A stretch of DNA of 64,000 bases from Candidatus Latescibacterota bacterium (GTDB taxonomy: Bacteria > Latescibacterota > UBA2968), in NCBI GenBank assembly GCA_022823725.1, contig JAJEHL010000011.1, forward strand, positions 199,107-263,106, read 5' to 3'. Position numbers and translations under genes: made by a program. The first letter of the stretch is position 1; each line of letters opens with the position of its first letter. Below are positions 16,246 to 34,664 of this stretch, in pieces. The notes under the pieces are model-generated. The model was not told where the DNA came from, made no database searches, and was given only the letters and a program-made list of their open reading frames with translations.

Positions 16246-18108
16246 TCAACGGAGTATATCGACAGTGCAACGACCTTTTGCTTCAATGTCTTTAATGAAT
16301 TCTTGATCAGAAGCAATCTTGCGTGTGGGATCATAAACGAGAAACAAAATGTGTGAATCCGCAGGATATTTCGTAAGATCAGCCGCGATTCCATCTGTTG
16401 CTTTGCTGGGAGTTGTACCGTCTCGAATATATTTTGATTCTATAAGTAGATTAGTGCCAATTCCATGGTCAGGAATTACTCGAGCCCCTGCAAAGGAAAC
16501 TTCAGGATGTTCACTCCTTAAATCCTGCCTGTGTGTTTTAAGCAATGCCTGAACTTTTGTGTTTAGATCATTTTCATTTTTAGGCTTATTCTGACGAAAC
16601 ATAGCAGGGATAGCATCTGAGACCTTCTCTCGTATAGATGCAACCAACCGTTCGATTGGCTCCTTCAAATATTCCCGTTCAGAGATCAACTTGAGTAACG
16701 AATCTTCCTCTATCGGTAGGTGTAAATCGTCATGGATATTTCTCATATGCTTCATTGCATCAAATACCTGCTTTCCATGTCTATTGCATAAATGCCAAAC
16801 TTTCTCAACAATTTCGACATCATCGTTGCAGTCAGGTATCCAGTCTATCAACTCCTGAAGCTCATTCATCATCTTTTCGCAAAAATAATCAACATTCCAG
16901 TTAGCGAAATTTCGCCCCTGGCGCACATAGTCAACCACTGTAGTTTTTGTCTCCCTACTGACCATAGTTTCCGATATAAAATTAGCAGCATATATCCCTG
17001 AATTATCAAAGTCTTCGGATCCAGACGCATGTGCTGCTATCCGACGATCAACACACTGGAAACATTGCCCGCAATGGGTGGCCTGCTCCATATTTTGAAA
17101 GGTTTTATTGCACGATACAGCGCTGGAAATCAGTTTGGGATGTCCACTGGCATTGATGGACTCAAATACTTCCGTCTTGGTTTTCCAGAGAAAAGGGACT
17201 TCAATACTGATAGGTTTATCCACAAACAGTGAAAAGAATTTTTGAAGTAAACCTATCGTTTGAGGATGCGTTGTTCTGCTTGCCCTTGCATTAGCAAGAT
17301 CTTCCCGCCGAGCAAAATTAATGCTGGTGACGCCGTTTTCGTACACATAGAACCGACTCTGTTTATATGCGTATGCCAATGCAAAAGCGACACTCGTGTA
17401 GAGAAATGATCTGCTCCGTTGAGTTTCCTCTATAGCATGAATACCTTTCAAACTGCACTTGAAGCAATAGTGGTGTACTCGATCAGGGAAGTGTGACTTG
17501 AGAGCCTTGGCAAGACGTTCCTGAGTTCTGATGATACTCGGCTGAAATGACTGATGGCTGACCAAACACACTTGTTCATCAGTGTTTTTTACCAGCCGTT
17601 CCAGTGCTCCGGCTAATGAATCAAGCCCCCCTGAGAAAAGTATGACAGAAATATCCTTTTCGCCAGCAACACTGAACACTTCCCTGTCAAAAAGACTGGT
17701 GGGTGGAGTTGAATGACCGGGTTGAAAATCGAACCGATACTCTCGATCACCAGTTAAAAATTTCAACGCATCCGACAAAGTCTGCTTAACCTCAGGTTTA
17801 TTCCAAAAAGGCTCATCACGAACCCGAATAACAAACTCAAGCGTCCGTGACCAACTGTGATATTCTACTGCATCTCGAGAACCTCGAGGAGTCATTCGGT
17901 CGGCGCAGTAAACATATGATGCTATCTCAAGAAGGTCTAATAGTCGATCGGGTAAATGATACACCCCTCTGACAAAATCAGGAAGCCGAAGATTGATCTT
18001 CCTGGTGGATTCCTCCAGATAGTTAAACTGCTTTACGGATTTCGCAGGCTTACTGCCATCCAATTCAGCATTATTGCACAGAACAATGTGGGGAGAGTCT
18101 TGTGTCAT
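16246..18108 (-). CDS. QueC-like PP-loop protein fused to a PD-(D/E)XK nuclease-like domain
   Basis: 620 aa. The central region is a QueC/QatC-type ATP pyrophosphatase: PP-loop ILFSGGLDSLAGALE near residue 160, and a zinc site (C, then CGQCFQC followed by VDRR) near residues 330-350. The last ~100 residues look like a restriction-endonuclease fold of DpnII/MboI type: ARVIPDHG, then LIESKYIRDG (D...E-x-K) near 545-560, and ILFLVYDPTRKI. QueC makes preQ0 in queuosine synthesis, but QueC-like proteins also occur in Qat and type IV CBASS defence. The fusion and the lack of queuosine genes favour defence. Last gene of the array; overlaps the preceding gene by ATGA. Nuclease assignment is by motif only. 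Confidence 0.82.
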   Translation of the reverse strand: MTQDSPHIVLCNNAELDGSKPAKSVKQFNYLEESTRKINLRLPDFVRGVYHLPDRLLDLLEIASYVYCADRMTPRGSRDAVEYHSWSRTLEFVIRVRDEPFWNKPEVKQTLSDALKFLTGDREYRFDFQPGHSTPPTSLFDREVFSVAGEKDISVILFSGGLDSLAGALERLVKNTDEQVCLVSHQSFQPSIIRTQERLAKALKSHFPDRVHHYCFKCSLKGIHAIEETQRSRSFLYTSVAFALAYAYKQSRFYVYENGVTSINFARREDLANARASRTTHPQTIGLLQKFFSLFVDKPISIEVPFLWKTKTEVFESINASGHPKLISSAVSCNKTFQNMEQATHCGQCFQCVDRRIAAHASGSEDFDNSGIYAANFISETMVSRETKTTVVDYVRQGRNFANWNVDYFCEKMMNELQELIDWIPDCNDDVEIVEKVWHLCNRHGKQVFDAMKHMRNIHDDLHLPIEEDSLLKLISEREYLKEPIERLVASIREKVSDAIPAMFRQNKPKNENDLNTKVQALLKTHRQDLRSEHPEVSFAGARVIPDHGIGTNLLIESKYIRDGTTPSKATDGIAADLTKYPADSHILFLVYDPTRKIASDQEFIKDIEAKGRCTVDILR

Positions 18109-18872
18109 ATCTGAACACTCTCCCGCATCAATTCCTCACGGATTTTGCCAAACGCTACCGCTAAAAATCGCTCTATTTCCTCATTTGATGGCATTTCCTC
18201 ACGAGCGTGATTGTTGTACCACCCGGCAGCAAACGACTGCGCAATTCTGGCAGTTTCAAACGCATGATCAGAAATATCGTCGATATGCTGTTCCAAAAGA
18301 TCGAAGAAATCATCGCGTTCCTGCAGGCCTGGCAAAACTGCCGAAGCTTCTCGCTCGAGAAAGTAGTTGAGATATCTCTCTGTAAAATTGGCAAAGAACA
18401 GCCGTGCCACTTCACAAAACCCTCCGCCATCACCCGCTTTTCGCCACACTTCAGCAGCATCGCTGTATTCAGGAAGGATGGTCTGTTGTTGCTGTTGTTG
18501 CCGGGTCCATTTGCCGACAGCATCTGTGGCAGCTTTCTGTGCGATATCTGCATATTCAAAAGAATTCGTGTGAGCTTTGACCCATTTAGACAGACTTAAA
18601 GAGATTCGAAGAGGCGAGGGATTTGAGGAAAGATCTACATAGGGACTTTCAGATTGAACTGAGACAGAAGAACGCGAAAGCGCTATAAGGAAACCAAATG
18701 CGGCTATTACACCATCATCTCTATGAATCTGAAGGAACTGCCTCCGAACGTTAGAGATAGTTGCTTTAGCAACGTCCGAAACTTTGCCTTCTTCTGGAAA
18801 TTCAGCTATTTGATCAACAACACTCCGCCATTGCTGCGTACGGGGAAGTGTTCCTGATCTTTCATGTCCCAT
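18105..18872 (-). CDS. Helical partner of the QueC-like protein, Met-Gly start, possibly QatB-like
   Basis: 255 aa, no firm family by eye. Predicted mostly helical, with an odd run of glutamines (about residues 125-130) and a C-terminal helix FGKIREELM. The N-terminus is Met-Gly followed by a short flexible stretch with Ser, Pro and Trp, resembling my recollection of QatB proteins, in which the exposed glycine is the site of modification by the QueC-like enzyme. The 4-base overlap with the QueC-like gene supports a direct partnership. This functional link is inference. The Shine-Dalgarno AGGAAG is part of a hairpin ending at the start codon. Confidence 0.65.
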   Translation of the reverse strand: MGHERSGTLPRTQQWRSVVDQIAEFPEEGKVSDVAKATISNVRRQFLQIHRDDGVIAAFGFLIALSRSSVSVQSESPYVDLSSNPSPLRISLSLSKWVKAHTNSFEYADIAQKAATDAVGKWTRQQQQQQTILPEYSDAAEVWRKAGDGGGFCEVARLFFANFTERYLNYFLEREASAVLPGLQERDDFFDLLEQHIDDISDHAFETARIAQSFAAGWYNNHAREEMPSNEEIERFLAVAFGKIREELMRESVQI

Positions 18873-18889: not shown

Positions 18890-18929
18890 GTTTTTTTTGG
18901 CTATTTAGAATATGGATGGGGTCGTCATT

Positions 18930-21900
18930 CTAAGAGAAATATTGCTGGAAAACTTGGTCTGCATCTTGACTTAATTGAGTTGACTCTTCTGTTGTAACCA
19001 ATCGTCCCCTGAAGTTTCTATCATACCAGGCCTCTTTGGTGTCCCAATGGTTTCGATATTCCTCTTGATCCAGACGTCCCAGATGTTCCCAGTACCACTC
19101 TTCTCCTTGCCAGAAAATGGTAAAATCAGGTAAATAGAACGTTCCATCAGAGGCAAATAGTGGTTTCTCATATTTGAAAGGAATGTCTCTCTCAAATAGC
19201 ATATTGGCGATAATAACTTCAGATTTAGAACGTACCATATAGTCCGTCAATGTTTTATGGATTTTCCCCTCTTCATACCATTGGTACATTGATAGAATTT
19301 CTTCTGGAACAGGCCGGAAAGTAAGCAAAGAAGAGTTGATGCCCAGAAGATGTGATTTTTCCATCCGCAACATACTTAAAAGCGGGCTAATATCTTCCTG
19401 AACCAGTACTGTGCAATGCCGACTGGCACGGGTTATGCCGGTATAGAATAGTTCCGTAGATAACAACGCCTGTCTGTGTTTTGGCAAAATAAAATAAACG
19501 CGATCAAATTCACTACCTTGAGATTTGTGAACCGAAATAGCATAGGCCAGTTCAAGATTTTCTTCCGGCTTTTCTGAAGGTAGCCAGTATCCATTGGGAG
19601 ATTTACCAAGCTTACTGCCATATCCCACCCAGTATTCTTCTTTACGCGAGAATATCACCTGAAAATGTTCCAGGCGAAAATCATCATCGCGTTGCCAATT
19701 TTTGTCGAATCCATGCGGCTTGGTGAAACCAAGCTCACCATTATACACTTCAATCTGCTCCAACTTATAGGTTGCTTTATTGAATGCCCAGATAGAATTT
19801 GATTTAGGCCGATTACGAAACTGAATCACCTTATCAAAGAGTGTAATTTGAGCAAGGTGTCCGACACGGTTCAGCATCCTTGCATTTGCTGCTTCCTGTA
19901 AAACTATATTCAGGTAATCGGTACCAAATTGATCACCTCGATAGGGGGAAATAACCTGCTGATATTCTGGTCGTCCTTCAAAAGCTGCTCTCCAGAGTTC
20001 AAACGGACGTTCTTCATTATGTTCTGAACCAGAGTCTTCTTCCATATCTGAGATAACCTGCTCTTTCAGTCTTTCTTCCAAATCTTCCGGATCGCTCCAG
20101 TAGACAATTCTTAAGTCCTGATCTATGTCACCACCTTCCTGTACAGCTCTTAAAATCTGCTCTTTTCTTGTATTGAAGGTCTGGTCTTTTTCTTTCTCCT
20201 GCAGAGCACGTGTATACAAAGATGCAAGATCGAGAATGCCTGTTCCTCTATCATTGAGACGATTCTCCATTTGTCGGATATTCGTTTTGAGAAACCCAAC
20301 ACACTCAGGCTGGTGTTCTTGCAGCCAATCGAATACATCTGCGAAAATCTTTCCTCGACCTATGGGGGGTAGTTGATTCAAGTCACCTACGAGAACCAGC
20401 CGCTGCACAACATTCCAGTTGATTGAGCGGAAAAGGGCAGCCATCAATCCCAGATCCAGCATAGAAGCTTCATCAATGATATAAGTGGAAGCACTATCTT
20501 CCCGAGTACCCCCGATGCGTTTATAAGTCATATTATCATTAAGCCATCCATGCCGGGCGAGAAAAGAATGAATTGTCGAAGCCGTTTTTCCTGTCGTCTC
20601 TCGTATGCGTTCCGTAGCTTTACCCGTCGGTGCCAATAATTGGAAGGCAGTGCCTATCCCGTGTGCCTTTTCAATCGCCTGTATTAAAGCCTTTATGACC
20701 GTTGTTTTTCCAGTCCCGGCAGATCCTGTCAGGATACAGATGGGTCTGGAAAAAATTTTCTGACATACATCGACCTGTCCCTGAATTACTTCATCATACT
20801 CGTTTGGATTTCCCTGACTCAAAGAACTATCCGAGTCGTACAAATAGGTGTGCCAGTGCTGCTCCGTAACAGGTGATCGCAAAGGAATATTAGGCCGTTG
20901 AGCCAGTAACCGAAGTTGCCTCTCGACCTCCCGTTCGTCGTCAAAGACGGATTTGAGGTATAGATACTTTTTTTTGTCCACTTCTCGCAGGATCAACGCC
21001 TGCGAGAGTTCATCTTTATCGACTTCCAAGTATCTTTCAGTATATTGATGCCTTTTCCACTCTGGCTGTAAACTTAACTTGTGGTTGATATCGTGAATGA
21101 TCTGAGTAGCGGTCATAAACGTGTGTTTTTCTTCTCGCCGCAACCGCTCAACACAAAGCCCTCTCAGTCGCCTCCAATCATCTTCATCAAAAAGAAAAGT
21201 GCCGCCCAAGTCTGGTGAAGGAAATACGCCGTGATCAATCTTGTTAAATGTGATGATATCGTCAGGATCATCACCTGTGAATTCTTCACTGAGAATGTAC
21301 GGATCGTCTGAAATTTCAGAGAGTGATGAATAGATCCCGTTCTGAGCGCGGTCTTCAGATAGAACTTTCTCAATTTGATCTTTATGAAGGTCAAATCGAG
21401 GTAAAAGATCTCGGAGCAAACCCCGCTTATCATCTTCTTTGAGCAACCAGCGACGGACTATTTTTCTTTTTATATCAGGATCAATATTGAGGCCATCAAT
21501 ATAATTACGATTACCATCCAGAAGACTGAAGATAGCATCCCTTGCCACCTGCTCTTTGCCTGAATTGACCTGAGATTTAAAAAACGGAATAGCATCCGTA
21601 AAACCGAGATAGTCGAGTACTTTCCCGAGCCCTGGATACAACCCCCGGTTCTGCCACAACTCTGCAACAAGCGATTGAAGCCAGTCGATTCGAAGCGACC
21701 AATCTTCACTGGTATCTCCAAGATCTTTAAGTGTGAGCGCAAATTCTAGGAATCGTTCTACAAGATCCAGTGCGTCGTCATCGGATATATGCCGTGTGGC
21801 ATATTTGAAGTTTCTCGGGTTATCAGGATAAAACAAGAACTGCTGTAAAATATCCGGATCATTCATATACAGATGATATGGAAGCCTTAATCCCTGATTT

Positions 21901-22517
21901 GGATAATGCGAGGTGATATTTCTCTGCCAGACGAATCCTCCACCAAATCGCTTTTGAGTTTCCTCAGAGCAATTTTCATAGAACAGTTCTTCGCCTACCT
22001 TTTTTATTCGCGACAACCCCACCACCACATAGCTTCGTTTATCCTCTTCGCTGAAAGGATTGCTGTAGTTTGCATAGTAAAAAATTAGACTTTGGTCTTC
22101 ATCAATTTGATCAAAATATTCTCTTGCAGCGGCGAGACGTCTATCATAATTGTAACCTTGTCCATCTCGTACTTCCTCCGTGTACATTTCTTCATAGGGC
22201 CACACCCCAACCGTAGCCGGCAACATATCCCAATACTTCGCTCGCGTATCATCTAAAAAAAAGCTAGGGGGATCTGCGTAAACCCGCAACGAATCATCAC
22301 CAAAGGCATTTACGCTGTACCTGCAAGGGGGTGGTTGATCCAGGCTTGAGCAACTGGCCCCACAATTTATCTTCTCCCATTCAAGATCACGATTTTCAGA
22401 AATAAAATTACCTGGATAGGAAAATTGGCCAACACAGTATGTATTTGCTGAGGGATTCTTACATATTCGCCCATTCCAACCATCCATATGCCACGCAAGT
22501 CTCGCAGAGATATGCAT
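18930..22517 (-). CDS. RecD-like superfamily 1 helicase with C-terminal nuclease domain
   Basis: 1195 aa. The N-terminal ~600 residues are a long accessory region starting HISARLAWHMDGWNG, with several conserved-looking Cys (CKNP, YCVG, NCGASC, PPCRYS). The SF1B motor follows: Walker A TGSAGTGKTT near 597, IIDEASML near 684, GDLNQLPPIG near 715, VHKSQGSEF near 997 and YTGITRAS near 1025. The last ~100 residues form a PD-(D/E)XK-type nuclease often fused to such helicases: E in RSKSEVIIAN, D in LPDF, and W-EHLG. It likely unwinds and cuts DNA (or RNA). ATG with AAGGA upstream; 20 bases after the DUF1998 helicase gene. Confidence 0.88.
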   Translation of the reverse strand: MHISARLAWHMDGWNGRICKNPSANTYCVGQFSYPGNFISENRDLEWEKINCGASCSSLDQPPPCRYSVNAFGDDSLRVYADPPSFFLDDTRAKYWDMLPATVGVWPYEEMYTEEVRDGQGYNYDRRLAAAREYFDQIDEDQSLIFYYANYSNPFSEEDKRSYVVVGLSRIKKVGEELFYENCSEETQKRFGGGFVWQRNITSHYPNQGLRLPYHLYMNDPDILQQFLFYPDNPRNFKYATRHISDDDALDLVERFLEFALTLKDLGDTSEDWSLRIDWLQSLVAELWQNRGLYPGLGKVLDYLGFTDAIPFFKSQVNSGKEQVARDAIFSLLDGNRNYIDGLNIDPDIKRKIVRRWLLKEDDKRGLLRDLLPRFDLHKDQIEKVLSEDRAQNGIYSSLSEISDDPYILSEEFTGDDPDDIITFNKIDHGVFPSPDLGGTFLFDEDDWRRLRGLCVERLRREEKHTFMTATQIIHDINHKLSLQPEWKRHQYTERYLEVDKDELSQALILREVDKKKYLYLKSVFDDEREVERQLRLLAQRPNIPLRSPVTEQHWHTYLYDSDSSLSQGNPNEYDEVIQGQVDVCQKIFSRPICILTGSAGTGKTTVIKALIQAIEKAHGIGTAFQLLAPTGKATERIRETTGKTASTIHSFLARHGWLNDNMTYKRIGGTREDSASTYIIDEASMLDLGLMAALFRSINWNVVQRLVLVGDLNQLPPIGRGKIFADVFDWLQEHQPECVGFLKTNIRQMENRLNDRGTGILDLASLYTRALQEKEKDQTFNTRKEQILRAVQEGGDIDQDLRIVYWSDPEDLEERLKEQVISDMEEDSGSEHNEERPFELWRAAFEGRPEYQQVISPYRGDQFGTDYLNIVLQEAANARMLNRVGHLAQITLFDKVIQFRNRPKSNSIWAFNKATYKLEQIEVYNGELGFTKPHGFDKNWQRDDDFRLEHFQVIFSRKEEYWVGYGSKLGKSPNGYWLPSEKPEENLELAYAISVHKSQGSEFDRVYFILPKHRQALLSTELFYTGITRASRHCTVLVQEDISPLLSMLRMEKSHLLGINSSLLTFRPVPEEILSMYQWYEEGKIHKTLTDYMVRSKSEVIIANMLFERDIPFKYEKPLFASDGTFYLPDFTIFWQGEEWYWEHLGRLDQEEYRNHWDTKEAWYDRNFRGRLVTTEESTQLSQDADQVFQQYFS

Positions 22518-22537: not shown

Positions 22538-25500
22538 CTATTCTTGATGCAGAAAAGTTTCCTTCAATGCGATATCCGGTTGCCTGAATTCTAGAATTGG
22601 TCCACCACGAGCAAACCCGGTTCTTGGGTCTATGATATCCAGACCACGATCGAGATAGAATAGTCTTTCTCCTCCCTCAGATCCCTGCACATAGATAAAT
22701 CTGGCATGGGTGCGATCTCGATACCCACGAATATCAATAGTTGGATTATATTCTGGAAAAGGCGCGAATGCTTCCTCCAGTTTTTTTCTATGTTCTCCCG
22801 GGATAAACGCGTACCGATCCCGGCTCTGATCAGAAAGTTTGGTGATCAACTTAACCCTTATTGGACCTTTCGAAATCAGAGGCTGATATACTTCTAATAA
22901 ACTACTCAGACAGGCGACCTGATGAGCATTTCTGAGATACGGATCTTGAATAATGATTTCCTTAATATCGTTTTCCATATCAGCAGTAAAGATCTTGGAA
23001 AAATCCACCCGATCTCCCTCTTCAAATCCATGGGTTCTATAGCCTGTCTCTACCAGATCAAACACTGTCAATTCTTCAGCGCAATTTTTAAACCAGTCTT
23101 CAAGCATTTTCTGCGCCTCTTCAAGACGATTTGCGCTTCTATTTTGCCACAATGGCTGACGATGTGTCAGACTATCCAGCACGGTTATCTTTTCTTCACC
23201 GAAATGGAAAGCTGCACGGCGTCCTTCCGCCGTTACACCCAGCATTGCATAAGGAGGTAGTTCAACACCATCCTTCATTTTATATATACGAACTCCCGCT
23301 TGATGGAGCAGCAATAAAGAGGCCATCGCACCTTCGTCTTCAGAGAGATTCTTGACAGCAAGTTTGAGTCCATTTCCGATCCTGGAAGCACAACTTTGCA
23401 GAAGAATATGCCAGGGGCCTGTCTCTGCTGGTCCGGTTGAAGTCACTTCGTTGGTGATAAGATATACCCTTGCGCTCTGATCTATAAGAGCCCTGAGTGC
23501 GCTTGCCCTGTCAGAGTGAGTATAACGAACGTCTTCATCCCAATTGCTATCTGCTTCCAGAATCAACTGTCCCAAATATTCCGACACAGGGCCACGCTCC
23601 AGAATATCATGGGCATATTGATTTCGATAGTGCCGCAGACATTTGTAGCATGACGCATCTCTACCGCACGAGCAATTCTCTACTCTGCGGTATGCCGCAT
23701 CCAGCACTGCCAAGCACTCATCCTGCGACTCAAGACGTTTGACATGCCCTGCGCCTCCCGGTACGCTATCGAATAGTACTACTTCTTGCAAAATGTGATT
23801 ACCGTCCCTGACCGGTCGAATTATACCATCAATATCTGCGGATTCTATGTTCAGAACTTCCGACATGCCGCCTAATAGCGCATACATCAAGGAGAGCCAG
23901 AATCCGTGATCTGTGTAGGCATATCCGGTTCCATCAAAAAGCAACCTGGCCGCACTGCCTCTGAATTCATGGCCCAGGTGTTGCCACTGAGGCCGTCCTC
24001 TGCATTCTCCACCAAACGGACGCCTGTGAGATTCTCCCGGTTTGTAATCGTCCAATTTCATACCACAACTACGGCATATATTAAATCCTCGCCCACTGCC
24101 ATCTTCTCCATCATTAAAAACAAAAAAATCGGCCAAATCTGTAGTGCGCAGAGAAACACGCCTGCCGCCCTGTCCCATAGTAAATACAACGGGATCCTCG
24201 CTATCTTGCTGGGGGACAAATAGGACTCTGGAACTGGGAATGCGAACTGGCCGATCAAAGGCAATAGGATCGCCTCCCTTTTCCAGGTCTGTCGTAAAAC
24301 CGTAATCAGGAACCACATAGAAATGTTTCCGGCGAGCCGGACTTCGACCATTATGATCACACACCGGACACTTTCCGCCTTGAAAAATCGCCCCTCTTTG
24401 TAAGTGGCGCTCAACGTACCAGCAATTTGGGCAACGTGCATAAAACTGTGCCTGAAGAGCACCGTTGGGCGGCAATTTGATACCTACACTTTCCCAGAGC
24501 CGTTCGTTTGCAACGACCTTTGCTCCGGGAGCATATTCCGAAAGGGCTATACGAAGATCACGATCCAGATCCAGGCCTGAATCACTGGTTTCTAAATTCA
24601 CATTATAGATCGGAAATGCATACCGGGGTAACACCCCTCGATCACTGAAGAAGGTTACCCAATCCACCCTCTTGAGACTGTCCATGCGCTTACTCAAATA
24701 GGTGAGAAAGCCTGCGATTTTTTTTGCATCTCCAAACTTTTTTGCATCTATTGTCTTGTGATGTCTTCTATTGGCTTCCCTGTACGCATCTTCAAACATT
24801 TTCAGTTCATTCACATAGTGGTCGCGAGCATCGCTGACATATTGTATTGCATATTGGGCAACCTGGCCGAGATAGGCTTCTGTGAAAGTATCGGGAATCA
24901 AAGACCGTATCGTTAATTTATGTGTCTCAACCAGTTCCTCTAAATTCTCAAAGAAAACTTCCACTGGAGCGGATTGATTTTTATCAGGTTCCTCCAGAAA
25001 ATCCCCTATTGACCGGATATTAGGATAGTTGGCTCGGATAAATTCAGAAAGTAAAACAGCCTGTATATGTCTGCGAACAATGACATCATTATCCAGATGT
25101 ATTCTGGGAGGAGGAACGACGCCTGCCACCATCTCTTCTGGAATAGCAAAGAAGTATTCATCGTGAGATCTTGGTAAAGAAAAGGTGACGACAAAAGCAG
25201 CTGTCCCAACTCCTCGACCAGCGCGGCCAGCACGTTGCTGATAATTGGTTGGACTTGGAGGCATATCCCGCAAAAATACCGCTTCCAGATCCCCGAGATC
25301 AACGCCCAGTTCAAATGTTGTTGAACAGCTCAAGACGTTAATCTGTCCTTCATCTCTGGAGTGGCCATTTTGAAAGGCTTCCTGATAGAGGGTTGCCACA
25401 GCAGGTGTAAGTTGAGCAGTGTGTTCCTTAGCAACTAATGGCGCAGGTTGTTCTCGACTGTAAATATGACGATAGTGGTTATTAGACATTACATGCTCAG

Positions 25501-28327
25501 GGTCTGCTTCGATAAGCTCGCCTGGACATCTGAAGCTCGGACACACGCCTCCTACATTCCAGGGCGTCCACTGATTGCAGGTTGGACAGTAATACCATTT
25601 TTCAGGACACCCCAAGCGCAAAGCTTCCCAACGAAATTGATGTCCGGACTTGCCCGGAGTGACCTCAACACGTGTAGTAGGTAAGACAGGAGCAGGACCA
25701 TCGACCTGTGTAAGAGAACGCCAGATGTCATAGAGGTATTGCAACACATCGTCGTCTGAGACTTCTGGCTTGCCGTTCCGTTTGGAGACTCTGTCCAAAA
25801 CTTTCTTGAGGAAAAAGCTGCGACGCTGTCTGGAAACGCCTGCTACAGGTACAAAACCCTGTAATCGCCACCGCGCTCCATTTTCCGATTCTCGCGCAAC
25901 AGCGGCATCTAGTCCCAGTTTGGGTGCAAAAGCCTCATCTCGAGGAGATAATGGCGGAGGCATAGTAACAATCTTCTGCATCCGTAGCGACGAAAGCAAT
26001 ACTTGCATCAGATCACGCTGTTCATGTTCCTCAACGCCCAGCACTGAAAAAGACTTTGGAAAATCATAAAAATCAGAAAGTTCAATGGACATACTGGTCA
26101 ATGCCAGGGCCTCGAGGGATTGCCGGCGGCTGAATGGCAGACAGAATTCAGCGATGAGCGCCCGCTGGGCTTCTAGGCGGATGTCATGATCCTCCATATC
26201 CCAGGGGAAAAATCGCTGAGTCTGATTCAGGTGTATGATATAGTCAATAACAGCATTTGCCGAAACAGATCCCGTCTTTCCCCCGGCCTGAAGGAGAGCA
26301 TTATATATCAGCCAGCGAAGCATCTGTACACGATGGGTATGCCCCAGATACGGAGCAAAATAGGCAGCCTGCTGTCGTGAATCTGAAAAGCATAGAAGCT
26401 TTCTGCCCTTACCCGGATAAGAGAGCACCCGAGAATCCTTGGAGGCTGGCAAATGGCGATAGAAGGATTCAGCAACGGCTGCCTGGGCTGCATTCGAATC
26501 TGCCCTTAATCCGGTTACGGTATTTTGTCCTCCGCAGGCGAAACACTTGGTAATCTCAGGTCCTACTTTTAAAAACCAGAAGGGAATATGACTCGCTTCA
26601 TCATCGCAGCTGCATTCACAGGAATCACCAGATTCATAGACACCACATCGAGAACAATAAGTCGCCCGTGTTCCAATTTCTTCCCCTTCTTTAACTTCAT
26701 CTTCTTCATCTTCCGAAACCGGTTCCGGAGGATCCCATGTGAACCAGACCGGTGTACCACGCCCCTCAAGGGGAGATCCAAATGCTTTCAGTATCCGACG
26801 ATCTCCTTCCTGAAACTCATACGCAAATACATATGGCTGTCCGCATTTGCGGCAGACCTGAAGTTCAACGGTCTTATGAGTTTCATCAGGAGTGGTATTG
26901 GTAGGTTCTAAAAACAGACTCGGTTCGTGCTTCCCTTTTTCACCTTCATGATCAAAGGCTATATATCCCCCTGACAGGCCTCGAACGAAAAAGTGATAAC
27001 GACACGGTACCAATCTGGCGTCCATATTCGGATACTTGGCCAAGCTGGCGATTCGAACCAGACCGATCAGGGTTTGCACGGCCTCCTCGTCTCGACTCTC
27101 AAATACATGGTGTGCAGCCGCAGGAAGATCGGGCACATCCTCGACCGCTTTACGCAGGAGTTTTATACGACTATCGTGCCGGAAGACTTCACAAAGGGCT
27201 TCAGTAAAACTGACCTGTGCAGTTTTTTCAGCCAGTGTGACAATATCCGAAGAAAAACCCCCATCTATAAGTACGGCCGATAATTCATCGAACCATTTTT
27301 CGTCTTCGCAAGCTCTGACGAACGCAGGGTGTGTATAGATGCTCTTTTTGATTTGTAGATCCTGTCCCAGAGGCAGCACCGTTCGCTCTGATTCGATTAC
27401 ATCCTCAGCTTTAAAGGACGAATTGAAGAGCCTGCTTGCAAAGGATGCAACTTCCTCTCGTGTTTCAGTATCTGATGCCCCTATTGTTGCACTTGTTGAA
27501 ATATATTGGGGAGGTGGTTCTGTCGGCTTTTTAATTCTGGCAAGTAAGCGACGCATCAGAAGGGCAACTTCGCTTCCCTTGGCTCCTGTGTACGTATGTG
27601 TTTCATCCAGAGCGATAAAACGCCAGGGACCGTGGAAAAGAGGGCTGTCATCGGATCGCATCAGCAAGTATTCAAGCATTGAGTAATTTGTAATCAGGAT
27701 ATGAGGAGGGTTCTCTCTGAAAACCTGGCGTGAAACAACCTCATTCTCCAATGCGTCTGGATGCAGATCCCGAGCCCGTGTTTCAGACTCTGGCGTAATG
27801 TTGATATTGACATAACGCCCAAATCGTATGTCGGGATGGTCTTTAAGCAGATGACGTAGCACTTTGAGCTGATCCTGCACAAGCGCATTCATGGGATACA
27901 GAAGCATAGCATGAATACCCGGCTCTGGATTTTCCAGAATTTCGGATAGAATAGGCACAAGGAAGCACAATGTTTTTCCACTACCCGTACCGCTTGTTAC
28001 AACAGCGTTTCTACCTTCTCGAAGTTGCCTGATCGTTCTGGACTGATGGCTATACAGTTCCTGGGTGGGACGACCAAGAAAAGGAATCTCACAGATTCTA
28101 TCAGGCAAAATACCGTCATCAACTAAATCCTGGAGGGATTCTTCCCTTATATACGGGGGCAATCCCTGAAGATAGGGACCTCGAAATAGCCGTCCGGGCT
28201 CGCGTATGCGCTGTTTGAACTGCTCACCGAGGTCAGAATACTCTGGTGCGACACTAAATGTTGTCAAAAGATAGCGTTCAAAACGCTCTGAAATAGCGTT
28301 AGAAAGTTCAAGTGGATCAATGGGCAT
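22538..28327 (-). CDS. Giant DEAD/DEAH-type helicase with DUF1998 and a C-terminal MIT_C/PLD-like domain
   Basis: 1929 aa. Helicase core: Walker A SGTGSGKT near 113-119, DETH at 241-244, STSATIG, and motif VI QRAGRAGRG near 1030. Several Cys pairs between the motifs suggest zinc ribbons (CRKCG, CSRCG, CFACG, CPTC, CPNC...CPVC, CRSCG). DUF1998 is marked by DSVPGGAGH and CSCG...CYKCLRHYRNQ near 1550. The size and order resemble DruE of Druantia; DISARM uses separate helicase and DUF1998 (DrmB) proteins. The last ~150 residues (IIQDPYLRN..., HARFIYV, YLDRGLDI) resemble the MIT_C phospholipase-D-like fold, which is an inference. ATG preceded by GAGG; 6 bases after the 161-aa gene. Confidence 0.9.
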   Translation of the reverse strand: MPIDPLELSNAISERFERYLLTTFSVAPEYSDLGEQFKQRIREPGRLFRGPYLQGLPPYIREESLQDLVDDGILPDRICEIPFLGRPTQELYSHQSRTIRQLREGRNAVVTSGTGSGKTLCFLVPILSEILENPEPGIHAMLLYPMNALVQDQLKVLRHLLKDHPDIRFGRYVNINITPESETRARDLHPDALENEVVSRQVFRENPPHILITNYSMLEYLLMRSDDSPLFHGPWRFIALDETHTYTGAKGSEVALLMRRLLARIKKPTEPPPQYISTSATIGASDTETREEVASFASRLFNSSFKAEDVIESERTVLPLGQDLQIKKSIYTHPAFVRACEDEKWFDELSAVLIDGGFSSDIVTLAEKTAQVSFTEALCEVFRHDSRIKLLRKAVEDVPDLPAAAHHVFESRDEEAVQTLIGLVRIASLAKYPNMDARLVPCRYHFFVRGLSGGYIAFDHEGEKGKHEPSLFLEPTNTTPDETHKTVELQVCRKCGQPYVFAYEFQEGDRRILKAFGSPLEGRGTPVWFTWDPPEPVSEDEEDEVKEGEEIGTRATYCSRCGVYESGDSCECSCDDEASHIPFWFLKVGPEITKCFACGGQNTVTGLRADSNAAQAAVAESFYRHLPASKDSRVLSYPGKGRKLLCFSDSRQQAAYFAPYLGHTHRVQMLRWLIYNALLQAGGKTGSVSANAVIDYIIHLNQTQRFFPWDMEDHDIRLEAQRALIAEFCLPFSRRQSLEALALTSMSIELSDFYDFPKSFSVLGVEEHEQRDLMQVLLSSLRMQKIVTMPPPLSPRDEAFAPKLGLDAAVARESENGARWRLQGFVPVAGVSRQRRSFFLKKVLDRVSKRNGKPEVSDDDVLQYLYDIWRSLTQVDGPAPVLPTTRVEVTPGKSGHQFRWEALRLGCPEKWYYCPTCNQWTPWNVGGVCPSFRCPGELIEADPEHVMSNNHYRHIYSREQPAPLVAKEHTAQLTPAVATLYQEAFQNGHSRDEGQINVLSCSTTFELGVDLGDLEAVFLRDMPPSPTNYQQRAGRAGRGVGTAAFVVTFSLPRSHDEYFFAIPEEMVAGVVPPPRIHLDNDVIVRRHIQAVLLSEFIRANYPNIRSIGDFLEEPDKNQSAPVEVFFENLEELVETHKLTIRSLIPDTFTEAYLGQVAQYAIQYVSDARDHYVNELKMFEDAYREANRRHHKTIDAKKFGDAKKIAGFLTYLSKRMDSLKRVDWVTFFSDRGVLPRYAFPIYNVNLETSDSGLDLDRDLRIALSEYAPGAKVVANERLWESVGIKLPPNGALQAQFYARCPNCWYVERHLQRGAIFQGGKCPVCDHNGRSPARRKHFYVVPDYGFTTDLEKGGDPIAFDRPVRIPSSRVLFVPQQDSEDPVVFTMGQGGRRVSLRTTDLADFFVFNDGEDGSGRGFNICRSCGMKLDDYKPGESHRRPFGGECRGRPQWQHLGHEFRGSAARLLFDGTGYAYTDHGFWLSLMYALLGGMSEVLNIESADIDGIIRPVRDGNHILQEVVLFDSVPGGAGHVKRLESQDECLAVLDAAYRRVENCSCGRDASCYKCLRHYRNQYAHDILERGPVSEYLGQLILEADSNWDEDVRYTHSDRASALRALIDQSARVYLITNEVTSTGPAETGPWHILLQSCASRIGNGLKLAVKNLSEDEGAMASLLLLHQAGVRIYKMKDGVELPPYAMLGVTAEGRRAAFHFGEEKITVLDSLTHRQPLWQNRSANRLEEAQKMLEDWFKNCAEELTVFDLVETGYRTHGFEEGDRVDFSKIFTADMENDIKEIIIQDPYLRNAHQVACLSSLLEVYQPLISKGPIRVKLITKLSDQSRDRYAFIPGEHRKKLEEAFAPFPEYNPTIDIRGYRDRTHARFIYVQGSEGGERLFYLDRGLDIIDPRTGFARGGPILEFRQPDIALKETFLHQE

Positions 28328-28333: not shown

Positions 28334-28819
28334 CTACCTCTCTGAATACTCCGGGTAAAACGAGTTCAATCTTTCGTCGATATCTTTATCTGTGTAACTA
28401 TGCTGATGTAAGAATTCTCTGAGTTGACTGATGATCTTTCTACTTCCAGCAGGAGGCTGATTTATGTATTTGCAGGTTTCTAAGATCCACAGCCATTCAA
28501 AAGCCGTCTCTTCATTCATATTTTGATGTATCTGTTTCCAGTCCTTAACACATGTCCCACCAAGAGTTATAATCCAATGAGTCTTTCGATTTTCCTGAGA
28601 CCAACTGACCGTTTTATCACCCCAGAATAGCCTTGCATCCCATTCCTTCCATTGTCGTTCTGTGAGGGTATGGCGGGATGGATCAAAGCTGATATTCAGC
28701 ATTCTGCATCGTTCGTGAATAGACCGCAGATCCATTGCGGGCAGAACTTCAAACGCTTCCTGATAGGTGGTACTCGGTAGAAGGTTTGACTTAACTAATA
28801 AGTTGGATAACACAGGCAA
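28334..28819 (-). CDS. Small array protein, unknown function
   Basis: 161 aa from a TTG at 28819; a GTG at 28813 has better spacing from GGGGG and may be the real start. It has Trp- and Glu-rich helical segments (WKEWDARLFWG, ETAFEWLWILETCKYI) and no signal peptide or membrane segment. It lies tightly between the Hsp70-like gene and the DUF1998 helicase, so it is likely a subunit or adaptor of the same complex. I do not recognise a family. Confidence 0.72.
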   Translation of the reverse strand: MPVLSNLLVKSNLLPSTTYQEAFEVLPAMDLRSIHERCRMLNISFDPSRHTLTERQWKEWDARLFWGDKTVSWSQENRKTHWIITLGGTCVKDWKQIHQNMNEETAFEWLWILETCKYINQPPAGSRKIISQLREFLHQHSYTDKDIDERLNSFYPEYSER

Positions 28820-28829: not shown

Positions 28830-30365
28830 TTATGAATTGAACAAACCCCTGGAATCTTCTGGAATATTGAATCCCAGATTTAGTTCATGTATGAACATCT
28901 CTGTTTCCTCTCGACTTGCTCGGGCAATCTGTCCACTACCGTGAATTCTCAAACCAAGATGTTGTGTAAGTGCAAAGTCCACTTCTATCCACGTTTCTTT
29001 TTTATCAATTGGAATAGGCACAATTCGTCGGAGAAGTCCCTGAGGCTGCATATCTTGCTCTAATCTGTCGCATATAAGCAACCGAGCAACACCAGTCTGC
29101 GTATTTGTAACGAAAAATCTCTCCTGTTTGGGGTTTTCAAAATCCAGCAACTCATTTTTCTTGAAAATGGGATAGAAAGCATCCTCAAAACCATTGGAAC
29201 CAGCCGTACGTATACCTATATCACTGGAGAAAATAGGTTCGGCGCCAAAAACCGACAGGAGAGCAGCTCCAATTGCAGTGGCATTACTCACATCAGTTTC
29301 TGGTGCCTGCCTATCATTGCGTGAATCAAAAGGAAGGTTTGTAATAATTACATCTGGCCCAAACTCTTGCTGCAAGCGCTCCTTTACGAGAGGGATGTTA
29401 CATGTTCCCCCGGACAGAAGAACAGGATTTATCAAGCTGTTTGCAACACCGGTATTTTTGATCGTCCGTAACAGACAGTTAATGCCACGCTCAATATATG
29501 GATCAACCCACTCTTCGAAGTCCTCACGCCTTACTTCGAATTCTATATCATAATCTGGCAAGAACCCGATTCGACTGAGGAGTGCTCTTGAACGGTTGGG
29601 TGCGTTTAACCTCCGCTTTGCTGCTTCCGCAAGAAGAAGAATCTCCGATCCCTTTCGAGGATGTTCCAGTATATCCTCAGGTGATAGGGGGATATCTGGA
29701 TAATCTTTCTTGAACTGAATCAATCCTTGCATAGCAATAATGCGGTCGAAATCATCGCCACCGACTTTTTGGCCGTCCTGAACCTGGATCTGTGCACGGC
29801 CATCATCAATCTTGACAGTAGCGACATCCAATGTCCCGCCTCCCCAGTCAAAAACAGCAGCCGTATCAGCATGCTGATTACACAGGGCATGGCAGTATAG
29901 AGCCGCGACTGGCTCCTGAAAAATATCGACAATTTCAATGCCTGCATTTTCACAGGCTTTACATAGGTTCTCTCTTGACCGATAAGGAAACTTAACGGGC
30001 ACAGTAATTGCCGCTTTCTTCAGTTCCCTTTCCTGGAGTTCGGCCTGATTAACAACATCTTTGATATAGCGAAAAAAGGCTGTAACGATATCGATAGGAT
30101 AAATATCGTATCCATTACCCAGATCCAGAGGGGTCTCTCTATCCAGTTCCCATTTAATGCTTGCAACACGAATCACATCTTCTAGCGTCAATGCCTCATG
30201 TCCAAAGGCTACGGGTTCATCATTGATATATCCGACAACAGAAGGTATAGAATACTCCCGGCCTCTACCGTCAAAAACAGGTACCATGATAGGCTTCTCG
30301 CCATCGAAATAGGCGATTCGAGTGTTTGTGGTTCCGAAATCAATGCCAAAGGCCGTATCTGTCAT
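28830..30365 (-). CDS. Hsp70/DnaK-like ATPase lacking the C-terminal lid
   Basis: 511 aa. Actin-fold nucleotide-binding domain with FGIDFGTTNTRIAYF at the start, VFDWGGGTLDVATVKID near 170, and LLSGGTCNIPLVKERL near 320. The ~110 residues after the ATPase domain could be a beta-type substrate domain (WIEVDFALTQHLGLRI), but there is no helical lid or EEVD tail and no dnaJ or grpE nearby. It is therefore not the housekeeping DnaK. Overlaps the coiled-coil gene by ATGA, so probably made with it. A role as an ATP-driven switch or assembly factor for the helicases is inferred. Confidence 0.9.
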   Translation of the reverse strand: MTDTAFGIDFGTTNTRIAYFDGEKPIMVPVFDGRGREYSIPSVVGYINDEPVAFGHEALTLEDVIRVASIKWELDRETPLDLGNGYDIYPIDIVTAFFRYIKDVVNQAELQERELKKAAITVPVKFPYRSRENLCKACENAGIEIVDIFQEPVAALYCHALCNQHADTAAVFDWGGGTLDVATVKIDDGRAQIQVQDGQKVGGDDFDRIIAMQGLIQFKKDYPDIPLSPEDILEHPRKGSEILLLAEAAKRRLNAPNRSRALLSRIGFLPDYDIEFEVRREDFEEWVDPYIERGINCLLRTIKNTGVANSLINPVLLSGGTCNIPLVKERLQQEFGPDVIITNLPFDSRNDRQAPETDVSNATAIGAALLSVFGAEPIFSSDIGIRTAGSNGFEDAFYPIFKKNELLDFENPKQERFFVTNTQTGVARLLICDRLEQDMQPQGLLRRIVPIPIDKKETWIEVDFALTQHLGLRIHGSGQIARASREETEMFIHELNLGFNIPEDSRGLFNS

Positions 30366-31585
30366 CCTTTATTCCTTTCTACACCGCGTGGCACCACATC
30401 CAGATAGTCTAATTCTTCAAAAATCTGTCTCAAACGGTTTGTCCACCGCCTCTCTTCTCTCGGTAAGCTATTGAAATCGAAATTTGGATCCAGCATCTCT
30501 GTAAAGCAGTCTTGGATCAACTGCCACAATTCATACTTGAACGTCTTAACCTCTGTCTGTCTCTCCTTATGAGCCATATTAACATCCTGTTCTGCCCTGT
30601 TTTTTATTCCGCGTAGATCTCTTTCCAAGTCTTGAATCTTAACCTGTGCTTCCTGGTATTGAGCATTTAGGTCATCACGACGCTCTGTTATTTCCTTCAA
30701 CTCATTACGTAAAGCCAGAACTTCTCTTACCTGTTCACGTATCTGACCTTTTTGATCGTCAAATTCCTTCTGAAGATTGTCCAATTGCACTTTTAAAACA
30801 TCACGTTCAGCCACAATTTCTCGCAATCCAGTAATTCCCGATTCTAGAAAATCCAAGAATTCCAATGTAGTTGGCTTATGTGGATGAGATGATTTGTGGG
30901 TAGGTTCAATATCCAAGGATAGATCAAATTGCTCTTCAGGCCTAGCTGACGTTTCTAACTGCTTTCTTCCTGGTTTTGATGCTGGTTTTGGTCCCCTATC
31001 CTCGGCACTTTCTATAAGTGCTTTCTTGTCTTCCGTCCAACATTTGACTGAGTCAACGAGTGCCTGCGTCCGGTCCGTGATCAATCCACGATTCCGCAAA
31101 AACTCCAACAACTCCAAGCCGCTGTCCGGCCCCATGTAAGGTTTAGCATAGGCTTCATATTTCTCAACTATTTCACTCTTTGTAAACAAATCCAATGTCT
31201 CTTTGAGTAGCTCTACAGCGGATCTTTTATTCACTAACCCCAGTTGCCTGATCGCACGCCACTTGGCGGGTTGATTGGTATTTTGTCCTTTAATAATGCC
31301 ACTCAGCATTACTACAAACTTATCCACTGTCTCTTTATCGGTCTCTTCAGAGGTGTCTCTTATTCGTTTTTCAATACGATTTACGACAGGATCGCAGAGT
31401 ACCTGTTTTAGTCTTTTTGAGCCCTGTTTATCATCGGGGGTAACGATCTGTATTAAAGTTTCAATACCCTCCTGGGATTCAAAAAGCCGGTCAATCAAAT
31501 ACTCTATGTGATTTTCATCGGTCTTGGAAGGCTTTTCCTTTTCGAGAAATCCACAGAGACTCTCTCCTATTTCATGATATTCCAT
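30362..31585 (-). CDS. Coiled-coil protein of the array, possible Hsp70 partner
   Basis: About 407 aa. The N-terminal half is helical (Hsp70-regulator-like, unassigned). A low-complexity linker follows (KPASKPGRK, HKSSHPHKP), then a long coiled coil (about residues 255-355, LREIVAERDVLKVQLDNLQ and similar heptads). The C-terminal end is YELWQLIQDCFTEML. The ATG at 31585 (MEYHEIG) has AGAGG six bases upstream; the longer open frame would overlap the upstream stop. A nucleotide-exchange or scaffold role for the co-translated Hsp70-like protein is a guess from position and a loose resemblance to GrpE-type coiled coils. Confidence 0.78.
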   Translation of the reverse strand: MEYHEIGESLCGFLEKEKPSKTDENHIEYLIDRLFESQEGIETLIQIVTPDDKQGSKRLKQVLCDPVVNRIEKRIRDTSEETDKETVDKFVVMLSGIIKGQNTNQPAKWRAIRQLGLVNKRSAVELLKETLDLFTKSEIVEKYEAYAKPYMGPDSGLELLEFLRNRGLITDRTQALVDSVKCWTEDKKALIESAEDRGPKPASKPGRKQLETSARPEEQFDLSLDIEPTHKSSHPHKPTTLEFLDFLESGITGLREIVAERDVLKVQLDNLQKEFDDQKGQIREQVREVLALRNELKEITERRDDLNAQYQEAQVKIQDLERDLRGIKNRAEQDVNMAHKERQTEVKTFKYELWQLIQDCFTEMLDPNFDFNSLPREERRWTNRLRQIFEELDYLDVVPRGVERNKG

Positions 31586-31616: not shown

Positions 31617-34600
31617 TTATTTATCCAACTTCCCCAGTGCCACCATCTCCTCCAGGACAATATCAAGCTCTATAATCTTCATATAGAGCTCTTTAGCACT
31701 TTCAATGTGCCCCTCAAGGCGAGCCTGTCGTGCCTTCAAGAGAGCCATTCGGGGAAAGTTCAACCTTGATTTAGCCAGTTGCTTGAGATGTTTCCTCGCA
31801 TCCTGGATATTCCCGTTAGCCTGGCAATCTATGGCTTTCAGATAGGTGACATCTTCATTGCAAATTGATGTTGGCCAAGGTGAAAACCCCATAGAAGAAT
31901 CACCACTGAAGTCCCAGCGATCAAGAGATGTATGAAGATATCTCTGGGCTTTTTGGATTGTCCGCAACCAAGGCACAAACTCCAACTTCGAATCAAAACT
32001 GCAGGGTTTGCTTAACAGAAATTGTGATATGCCAGTAAAAATAGCAGCTTCAGCCTGATCTGCGAGTAAATGGCTCACGAAATTTCTGAGATATGTATCA
32101 TATACCGCCCTGAGCGCTCCCTCTCCCCCCTTTCCCATTCTGCCAAGTCGGTAAGACCATTCGGCCATTGCAAGCTGTTTCTGCGAATTTTCTTCCCAAG
32201 CATCAATGTCTTGTTTAAGTGCTCTGAATCGGTCTCCTGGAAAATGTGCCCGCATCTCCAGCATAGCACCACCATATCTGGCAGCAGGCAAACCACCGGC
32301 TTTCTTCTGGTGGGGCAAAATTTCTGCTGCACGATCAAACGATCCGATAAATATATATACTCTTCCCAGCCTTGCCAGTAGTAGATGCTTGACGGTCAAG
32401 GGTAAATCCTCTGTCCTTATTCGTGTCTCAAGTATCTCAGCTTTCTGATTTGCTTCAACATACTGTCCTTCAAGGGCCAGACATTCCACCTTTGAAGCCT
32501 CGTTAAACCAGCTACCGTATATGGATGGGGAACGTTTCGGAGACGAAACATTACTTTTGGTTCTTCCCAACAGCCTGGCAATTGTCAGCCAAGTGTTCTC
32601 ACAGTTAACCTGTATTGTACCCGAAATAGCTGGACCTAAGTTATCCAACCATCGGTGCAAAGGAATAACAAATGTATATGGAGAAATCTGTTTTCCCGCA
32701 CTGACCGGCTCATTGCCGTCCAGGTAGCCAAGCAGTTCATTGTCATTTACTTCTGGCATACTGTGAAGTTCAAGCTTCAACCGAGCGTTTAAATCTTCTA
32801 CCTCGTACAATTTCATGTCCAGCGGGAGAGATACCCAATTACCGAGAGGGGTTTTCGGAGAGAGATAGGATATTCTGGAAACTCGCAGTCGGACAGCCAG
32901 TAACATCTCCGGGTCTAAATCCTGAGGACGCATACTGAAATGGATAAGCGGCTCTTTGATAGGATCTTCAGCATAAAGAATATAGGAACCATCTCTGAAT
33001 ATATCACCACACCCCGGGTACGTGGTTACAGACTTAGCCCCTCGAATTGATAATGCCTTCGCCTGCCCGGGCCTGTTAGGATCATTTACATAGTCAAGCT
33101 GAACACCTGAAATCACCTTAAAATGTAACTTCTTAGGCGTTTTCTCTATCAACCGAGAAAACAGAAGGCGCACAGCGAAGCTACCAGAAAATGAAGTAAA
33201 TTGCTCACACTGGGAGAAGTCAATCAGAATTTTATCATTCTCTTTGATGTAGGTGATTCTATCCGATCTGTAATCATCATCAGGACACATATACAGATTC
33301 CAAAATTTGCCATCTTCTGTTCGTTCAATCTCCAGTATAGAATCTTGCAGAATTGTCTCATCCGAAGTTTTAATGATTAATTGGGGCCATCTGTTTAGCC
33401 AAGTTGGTATCATCCCGGAAATATCTACCTCAAGTTCTGGAGGATCAACCAACTCCCAATCTATTTGAATATCAGATAAATCAAATAGATAAGAGCCGAG
33501 CTTTACTTTCGAGATAATGGAAACACAGAAGCCTTTCCAGTCCCACCAGGCAACAGGTTCGTAATCTATCTCTTCCAGTATTTCGAGACCTTCAGTCGAA
33601 TAGAATTCATCGATATCAACAGTGGGTGCGGCCAGTACATAATACGTTCCTGGGGGCAAAATAAGATCAGGTTTCCAAGAGATAGCTTTTCCGTTTTCCT
33701 CAAAAATCACATACGGTCCATCAGAAGAGGGAATCTGTACCTCGACGGAATGAGGGAAGGTATTTCTTTGGTTACCGCGATGTTCTACATCAATTTTCCA
33801 CGAAGCAGGTTCAAGGGGTTCCGTTATTGCTTCTGATACAACAGTCTTATCGTGCAATTGTCTAATAGGAACTTGAAAAGCATCTCCAGTAGCAACTTTC
33901 CAGGATATCTCTTCTCCGGCAGGTAGTGTCTGTGCAGGAAGTATACCTACAACCTGCTGTTCGTGAACCTGCCAGTAGACCTCCGGCAGAAGAATTTTAG
34001 ACTGTGGAGCTTGAGGAGGCTTAGGAAGAGGTTGTGTAGAAAAAGCATCTCGGATCAGGTTCGCAAGAATCTCGTAAACTGTTCCTTTCCACGAACCAGG
34101 TATCTGATCCGGAAATCCGGGATATAAAGCAACATGAGCAATAAGGCGAGTAAGGGACCATAGAACACGACTTCCGCCATCGTTCTTGATCAGCTCTAAA
34201 TGCAATGAATTGAGCTTGGAATTATTGCTTTGATGCACGTATCGATCAAAGTCTGAAAACGAAATACCTGAGAGATCAGCCAGTTCTAAATTACTCTCGA
34301 AACTGCATACCCACCTAATAAATCCTGGTGTAATGCAATTTGCAATGGATGTTTCTGCGCGTCTTACTGCTTTACGAAGGTCATTGGGTTTTCCCTGGAT
34401 ACCCCATTCGATCAATGAATCCAAGACACGTTGCGGAACATCGATTGCGACTTCACCAGATGGACCACTTCCGCCTGTGAAAATCGAGCCCTCGGAATAT
34501 AGAAAAGAAAATACATGTCTTGGGATTTCTTCTTCGATCTGAATGCCCAAACTTTCCAGATGATTCTTAGCTACTGGCGAGATCTGAAAAGTGGCAAGTT

Positions 34601-34664
34601 GATTTGTTCCTGGTATAACGGTCTTCGTATAATAGTGGCCATCTTGAGCACGATATAGATTCAT
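31617..34664 (-). CDS. 1015-aa array protein with beta-rich middle and helical-repeat C-terminus
   Basis: First gene of the array. No nuclease, helicase or ATPase motif is visible and I do not recognise a family. Residues ~1-200 are mixed. Residues ~220-680 are rich in predicted beta strands with many Trp/Pro (LPAGEEISWKVATG, ILPPGTYYVLAAP), suggesting several Ig-like or jelly-roll domains. Residues ~700-1010 read as TPR-like helical repeats (ALEGQYVEANQKAEILE, ALRAVYDTYLRNF, ARLEGHIESAKELYMKII). Such a protein could be a recognition or scaffold subunit. It is 31 bases upstream of the coiled-coil gene. No strong promoter is evident in the AT-rich leader. Confidence 0.8.
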   Translation of the reverse strand: MNLYRAQDGHYYTKTVIPGTNQLATFQISPVAKNHLESLGIQIEEEIPRHVFSFLYSEGSIFTGGSGPSGEVAIDVPQRVLDSLIEWGIQGKPNDLRKAVRRAETSIANCITPGFIRWVCSFESNLELADLSGISFSDFDRYVHQSNNSKLNSLHLELIKNDGGSRVLWSLTRLIAHVALYPGFPDQIPGSWKGTVYEILANLIRDAFSTQPLPKPPQAPQSKILLPEVYWQVHEQQVVGILPAQTLPAGEEISWKVATGDAFQVPIRQLHDKTVVSEAITEPLEPASWKIDVEHRGNQRNTFPHSVEVQIPSSDGPYVIFEENGKAISWKPDLILPPGTYYVLAAPTVDIDEFYSTEGLEILEEIDYEPVAWWDWKGFCVSIISKVKLGSYLFDLSDIQIDWELVDPPELEVDISGMIPTWLNRWPQLIIKTSDETILQDSILEIERTEDGKFWNLYMCPDDDYRSDRITYIKENDKILIDFSQCEQFTSFSGSFAVRLLFSRLIEKTPKKLHFKVISGVQLDYVNDPNRPGQAKALSIRGAKSVTTYPGCGDIFRDGSYILYAEDPIKEPLIHFSMRPQDLDPEMLLAVRLRVSRISYLSPKTPLGNWVSLPLDMKLYEVEDLNARLKLELHSMPEVNDNELLGYLDGNEPVSAGKQISPYTFVIPLHRWLDNLGPAISGTIQVNCENTWLTIARLLGRTKSNVSSPKRSPSIYGSWFNEASKVECLALEGQYVEANQKAEILETRIRTEDLPLTVKHLLLARLGRVYIFIGSFDRAAEILPHQKKAGGLPAARYGGAMLEMRAHFPGDRFRALKQDIDAWEENSQKQLAMAEWSYRLGRMGKGGEGALRAVYDTYLRNFVSHLLADQAEAAIFTGISQFLLSKPCSFDSKLEFVPWLRTIQKAQRYLHTSLDRWDFSGDSSMGFSPWPTSICNEDVTYLKAIDCQANGNIQDARKHLKQLAKSRLNFPRMALLKARQARLEGHIESAKELYMKIIELDIVLEEMVALGKLDK

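Follow-up and report, generated by a model that had tools for sequence, protein, structure and literature searches.

Do eight consecutive genes on one strand of a bacterial genome encode a single defence machine, or a stack of separate ones? The question is raised by a 64,000-nt stretch of DNA (the window) from the 5.3-Mb draft genome of a Candidatus Latescibacterota bacterium (contig JAJEHL010000011.1, forward-strand positions 199,107 to 263,106), in which an earlier note, made from the letters alone, described an eight-gene array as a possible new multi-part defence system. The list of open reading frames (ORFs) bears out the array: eight genes run along the - strand between 34664 and 16246, and we number them P1 to P8 in transcription order (ORFs of 1015, 434, 511, 161, 1929, 1195, 255 and 620 amino acids (aa), respectively; Table 1). 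With a probability of roughly 0.7, the genes form a defence island cassette that consists of three or more modules facing in one direction, and not one eight-part machine. We rejected a single eight-part system as the principal reading because P6 and the pair P7-P8 each occur elsewhere without the rest.

The family calls support defence-type DNA, as the earlier note had held, and its list of gene products is essentially right by Pfam, PADLOC and NCBIfam, except that the tetratricopeptide repeat (TPR) assignment of P1 is weakly supported. Pfam recognises Hsp70 (E=1e-36), the MrfA Zn-binding domain/DUF1998 (4.7e-13), a RecD-like AAA_30 domain (2.2e-31), QueC (7.3e-8) and DpnII-MboI (2.5e-10). 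No named system was found that contains the whole set, again in line with the note. In the PADLOC search of the eight proteins the set as a whole is unmatched, P6 is already catalogued as PDC-S68, and P5 and P8 match DruE and QatC models. The successive junctions from P1 to P8 measure -50, -4, +10, +6, +20, +57 and -4 bp, so that the short gaps reported earlier stand, while true 4-bp overlaps are limited to two of the seven junctions. The 50-bp overlap of P1 and P2 is probably an artefact of the TTG start call, which extends the P2 ORF to 31666; the more likely start of P2 is an ATG at codon 28 (31585, with the purine-rich GAGAGGA upstream), which gives a protein of ~407 aa and a distance of ~31 bp to P1.

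P6 matches the PADLOC model PDC-S68 from end to end (1822 bits, residues 1-1193 on profile positions 3-1200 of 1202), and we found no difference from it except the place of P6 in this island. PDC is, as we take it, the PADLOC label for phage defence candidates, and PDC-S68 is named in no paper found in the literature searched. P6 is also similar to RecD2 (7e-73, NCBIfam), and E1100, D1131 and E1144 are invariant across a ten-sequence alignment; from these three residues the C-terminal region is predicted to be a PD-(D/E)xK nuclease, and the second module, P6 by itself, would be a stand-alone RecD-like helicase-nuclease. The structure of P6 predicted from a seven-row alignment has a mean predicted local distance difference test score (pLDDT) of 50, which is too low for searching by fold. 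A scan of genome contigs returned nine relatives, from Bacillota, Actinomycetes, a planctomycete, Verrucomicrobia, Chloroflexota, an archaeon and a proteobacterial fragment, and plasmids of Hymenobacter, Paracoccus and Bartonella supplied three more good ones, with identities of 44-64%; the viral-contig scan with P6 was empty. For 11 of the P6 relatives' loci the flanks can be read, and tblastn at 1e-3 found none of P1-P4, P7 and P8 there; the flanks are short on both sides in L004 and on one side in L005, L006, L007, L009 and L026.

The surroundings of these relatives bear on another division of the block, into a chaperone/Druantia/RecD system formed by P1-P6 and a separate P7-P8 pair. The gap between P5 and P6 is 20 bp, and 4 of the 11 loci have, near the P6 relative, a helicase somewhat similar to P5, including one DruE gene in Ktedonobacter, as this division would have it. 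However, ~2.3 kb separates the two Ktedonobacter genes, which lie on different strands, a helicase of this kind is missing from the available flanks of most P6 relatives, and PADLOC treats PDC-S68 as a candidate of its own. We regard a P1-P6 unit as unlikely.

The third module, the P7-P8 pair, is the best-supported novelty of the block. Plasmid p1_LIP1709037 of Leptospira noguchii has this gene order and the same 4-bp overlap, and its proteins, of 260 and 621 aa, have 42% identity to P7 and 45% to P8, respectively; a viral contig from IMG/VR (L060) carries a P7 relative (33%) followed by a P8 relative (41%), once more with that overlap. None of P1-P6 stands beside the pair on the Leptospira plasmid or in the viral contig. 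On the latter (IMGVR_UViG_3300012973_000028, 6768-7562) the QatC-like gene stops near P8 residue 244 beside phage-type sequence, which may mean that a provirus junction falls within the gene or that the assembly was joined there. The viral-contig scan queried with P8 itself was empty. Residues 44-388 of P8 match PADLOC QatC (9e-45), and solved QatC chains in the PDB are matched at 4e-22 (9vlk) and 5e-19. The motifs listed for the QatC cluster in PMC13329287 are present in P8, which retains SGGLDS, D70x4R, WxR, RSRSFLY, ENG, THP, Px4TK and CGxCxxCxxRR, with different spacing in three motifs, and is without the canonical QueC motifs YPDC, VPxRN and YxQxH. Within its DpnII-MboI match, PD at 546-547 and ESK at 557-559 are kept in the Leptospira relative. 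The start of P7, MGHERxGxxPxTxxW, is invariant in P7 and its two relatives, and the first 15 alignment columns are more conserved than the others (9/15 vs 50/248; Fisher p=0.0013, three sequences).

In Qat, QatBC alone is enough against some phages, as part of the defence, and the N-terminal glycine of QatB is essential (PMC13279940). The type IV cyclic oligonucleotide-based antiphage signalling system (CBASS) has a QueC-family enzyme, Cap9, that modifies its partner protein N-terminally (PMC13279940; PMC11996544). P7-P8 resembles Qat in that a Met-Gly protein, with a start like that of QatB, is followed after a 4-bp overlap by a QatC-type QueC enzyme, as which P8 is identified by PADLOC, its signature motifs and the PDB. 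It differs from Qat as follows: First, P7, despite its invariant Met-Gly start, is unrelated to QatB in sequence. Second, P8 scores 180 bits against the NCBIfam QatC model, below the cut-off of 280. Third, P8 bears an extra C-terminal DpnII/MboI-type nuclease. At last, neither the KAP NTPase family of QatA nor the TatD nuclease family of QatD was found among the eight proteins by Pfam and PADLOC. The likeness to type IV CBASS lies in a QueC-family enzyme that would act, by analogy, on a Met-Gly partner, whereas the motifs of P8 are of the QatC and not the Cap9 type, and Pfam and PADLOC recognised no CD-NTase or Cap10-like enzyme in the block. P7-P8 appears to be a separate two-gene unit, an undescribed variant of the Qat kind. 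A congener (G037, L039 408-7738) has a qatABCD-like locus with a 4-bp B-C overlap and a Met-Gly-Thr-Ser (MGTS) start inside the QatB ORF. This locus is identified by the order of its genes, its QatC match and the MGTS start.

The sequence comparisons show the gene content, the modular distribution, the conserved motifs and the insertion described below; the anti-phage function and each of the biochemical steps proposed here are our inference. In the P7-P8 module, Met would be removed from P7, and the exposed Gly2 would enter the QueC-type active site of P8. By analogy with type IV CBASS, P8 would use ATP to attach a group, probably of the 7-deazaguanine type, at Gly2 of P7. The P7-P8 complex would then license the P8-fused nuclease to cut invading DNA, with the tag presumably controlling that nuclease.

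P1-P5 would make up the first module, in which the helicase P5 matches PADLOC DruE1 (4e-168) and DruE3 (4e-155, reaching profile position 2010 of 2055) as well as a solved 2108-residue helicase (PDB 9tu7, 1.8e-68). This Druantia-type call is scored on the PADLOC DruE models, a set believed to be without ARMADA models. The P5 C-terminus can be aligned to the PLD-like ends of distant DruE proteins, with an HxR and the G after it conserved; the same end of E. coli DruE has one inactive and one putatively active PLD domain (PMC13192584). Thus P5 shares with Druantia type III the DruE helicase, the MrfA Zn-binding domain and two C-terminal PLD-like segments. The difference is that there is no DruH or DruH-like gene (no PADLOC DruH match) and that four other genes, including that of the Hsp70, stand upstream. 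DruH contains Ig-like domains and probably serves as a phage sensor (PMC13192584). P1 as a divergent DruH was rejected, as it showed no similarity in a comparison with the partner proteins of five DruE relatives; we speculate that P1, being upstream, beta-rich by inspection and weakly TPR-like, could fill a DruH-like sensor role.

Relatives of P5 have other company. A large gene lies directly upstream of the helicase in G003, G433, G486, G506 and Ktedonobacter, and four of these five partner proteins are mutually homologous; PADLOC makes no DruH call on them, and P1-P4 show no similarity to them. The relatives on cyanobacterial plasmids are accompanied by a coiled-coil-type protein and a hypothetical protein. 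In a tree of 12 rows P5 diverges deeply and on a long branch, apart from the rest of the non-cyanobacterial relatives (support 94/95 and 92/94), a placement that is unsure because the branch is long. The viral-contig scan with P5 was empty. The protein upstream of the Ktedonobacter DruE (L011 20995-23454) matches PADLOC MzaA in its C-terminal part (4e-49).

The Pfam HSP70 match of P3 ends at profile position 353 of 599, and residues 6-338 match DnaK in the PDB. P3 contains IDFGTT, SIK, FQEPVAAL, DWGGGTLD and LLSGG, and in keeping its ATPase motifs it is unlike the Hsp70 domains of CoCoNuT, which are degenerate (PMC11090510). For P1, no match in Pfam, PADLOC, NCBIfam, PHROGs or the PDB is informative, and P4 has zero matches in the first four of these. 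P2 was considered as a GrpE and rejected, the only score being one for a coiled coil (0.0087), with no hhalign support. Hsp70 occurs with GTPases in conflict systems (PMC7159879; Hsp70/GrpE theme, GAP1-N2 GTPase), and the association of P3 with TPR-bearing P1 and coiled-coil P2 recalls these sets, with the difference that there is no GTPase and that P2 is not detectably GrpE. By Pfam and PADLOC, the block holds neither the TRAFAC GTPase nor the McrB-like GTPase that would mark a GAP1-N2 or CoCoNuT system, nor, following the system definition in PMC12458937, a methyltransferase or a second superfamily 2 (SF2) helicase.

In the mechanism that we propose for P1-P5, the place of the usual DruH sensor would be taken by three proteins, one with TPR, one with a coiled coil and an ATPase-competent Hsp70. 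P1 would be the sensor or scaffold and P2 a co-chaperone-like partner of P3, and P1-P3 would sense or remodel a phage protein and then switch on the P5 helicase. The gating of a helicase-nuclease by Hsp70, which the earlier note had extended to the whole array, is possible for P1-P5 only. Another account of this module, which fits the modular reading of the rest, is that P1-P3 are a chaperone set or another conflict system merely adjoining the helicase, and that P5 works by itself or is a helicase whose DruH has been lost. Some plasmids carry Hsp70 sets, complete with GrpE and TPR genes, that have no DruE in the flanks read, and these sets, the conflict systems cited above and the large gene directly upstream of the non-cyanobacterial helicase relatives all point this way. 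On the other hand, P1-P5 are tightly packed, and the deep separate branch of P5 would fit a different set of partners. We consider such a bystander role possible and rather doubtful. No relatives of P1 or P2 were found beside the Hsp70 genes of Paenarthrobacter, Rhodococcus and Acaryochloris. The Paenarthrobacter plasmid (L034 7859-12103) has a tight set of a 376-aa apparent coiled-coil protein, an Hsp70 and a 446-aa protein, adjoining methyltransferase, DEAD helicase and GIY-YIG genes.

How did the block come to lie here? Homology to congeners reaches 16189 and resumes at 34737, with none between, in eight loci of seven congeners, which were located with a 2.7-kb right-flank probe in a phylum sample of 64 genomes. 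The block (~16190-34736) is therefore strain-specific, and with congener DNA on both sides and nothing matching inside, it is a discrete insertion. In G032 (L058), window positions 11901-14115 are joined directly to 35051-35837, and in G033, G036 and G037 position 14150 joins ~35611; G034, G035 and G029 have some flanking pieces (the DUF433-like gene at ~15917-16189 and, in G029, part of the AbiE region), and the array is absent. An imperfect 21-bp direct repeat (14091-14111 and 35051-35071) lies at the edges of the larger accessory segment. The block has a G+C content of 43-48%; the values on its left are ~48-57% and those on its right 47-56%, dropping lower in places further to the right. 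The tRNA-Val gene was rejected as the integration site, since its 3' end points away from the block and a repeat scan of 14000-37000 found no copy of that end at the far edge. On either side of the region is an AbiEi/AbiEii toxin-antitoxin pair, one per strand (14268-15802, -; 41896-43448, +). Window positions 8448-8691 and 15921-16189 match the same place in congener contigs, which suggests two copies of the DUF433-like gene.

The insertion also bears on the suggestion of the earlier note that all eight genes belong to a single multi-part system, with a chaperone, two helicases and two nucleases in one pathway. The genes share a strand and short gaps in a single inserted block that is found nowhere else and has host-type DNA at both ends, and terminator-like sites in the region are not clearly above chance; it is possible that the eight function together after assembly. 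Nevertheless, the note had itself named genes that do not stay together in other genomes as a refutation, and on this point its suggestion fails for P6 and for P7-P8: P6 relatives occur without P1-P4 and P7-P8 in the 11 loci, and P7-P8 recurs twice alone. We therefore consider one integrated pathway very improbable. Several further points weigh against the modular reading. The instances of the P7-P8 pair total three, including this island, and the viral contig shows part of the QatC half and not the nuclease, because its P8 relative ends near residue 244. P7 has no sequence similarity to the QatB of G037 (blastp, hhalign), so that it was rejected as a QatB homologue by sequence, and its single-sequence predicted structure (mean pLDDT 43) is too poor for a fold comparison with QatB. 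P1-P5 as one system is a guess because no second copy of P1-P4 was found. For P1, P2 and P3, plasmids, viral contigs and several hundred genomes gave no second copy; genome searches of two other phyla with P1 and viral-contig scans with P1 and P3 were likewise empty. These absences are weak evidence because the genome searches were a loose first look at a sample per phylum.

Table 1 Features of the eight-gene block and its surroundings (window coordinates).
Feature	Position	Strand	Description
P1 (P0001)	31617..34664	-	1015 aa; beta-rich centre by inspection; weak C-terminal TPR (TPR_19 E=3e-4, C-terminal fragment)
P2 (P0002)	30362..31585	-	~407 aa from the likelier ATG; helical region and coiled coil; coiled-coil matches only
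P3 (P0003)	28830..30365	-	Hsp70 with ATPase motifs; DnaK-type substrate-binding domain not recognised
P4 (P0004)	28334..28819	-	161 aa from TTG; orphan
P5 (P0005)	22538..28327	-	DruE/YprA helicase, Druantia-type; MrfA Zn-binding domain; two PLD-like segments C-terminally
P6 (P0006)	18930..22517	-	PDC-S68; RecD2-like superfamily 1B (SF1B) helicase with C-terminal PD-(D/E)xK-like domain; second module
P7 (P0007)	18105..18872	-	Met-Gly protein; QatB-like role proposed; proposed P8 substrate; third module
P8 (P0008)	16246..18108	-	QatC-like enzyme fused to DpnII/MboI-type PD-(D/E)xK nuclease; third module
Accessory segment	14112..35050		Beside tRNA-Val; AbiE pair, DUF433-like gene and eight-gene block; absent in congener G032
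Sulfatase-start duplicate	34868..35063	-	Right edge of inserted block; 92% identical to intact sulfatase start 10222-10374; matches congener sulfatase start

The block indicates that independent modules can be stacked into what looks like one orderly array, with a shared strand and short gaps. We put forward, tentatively and with the odds against it, the joint proposal that P1-P5 are a new defence class, in which an ATPase-competent Hsp70, with coiled-coil and TPR partners of its own, is the sensor or gate for a Druantia-type helicase-nuclease, and that P7-P8 are another new type, independent of the first, whose fused restriction-type nuclease is under the direct control of N-terminal protein tagging. 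P1-P5 may be more novel than P7-P8 but are known in a single copy; if they are one unit, they would be a chaperone-gated version of Druantia. It is not yet understood how modifying QatB halts phages (PMC13279940). With modifying enzyme and nuclease in one protein, a natural two-gene form would link the tag to DNA cleavage, and P7-P8 would make that question testable with two genes.

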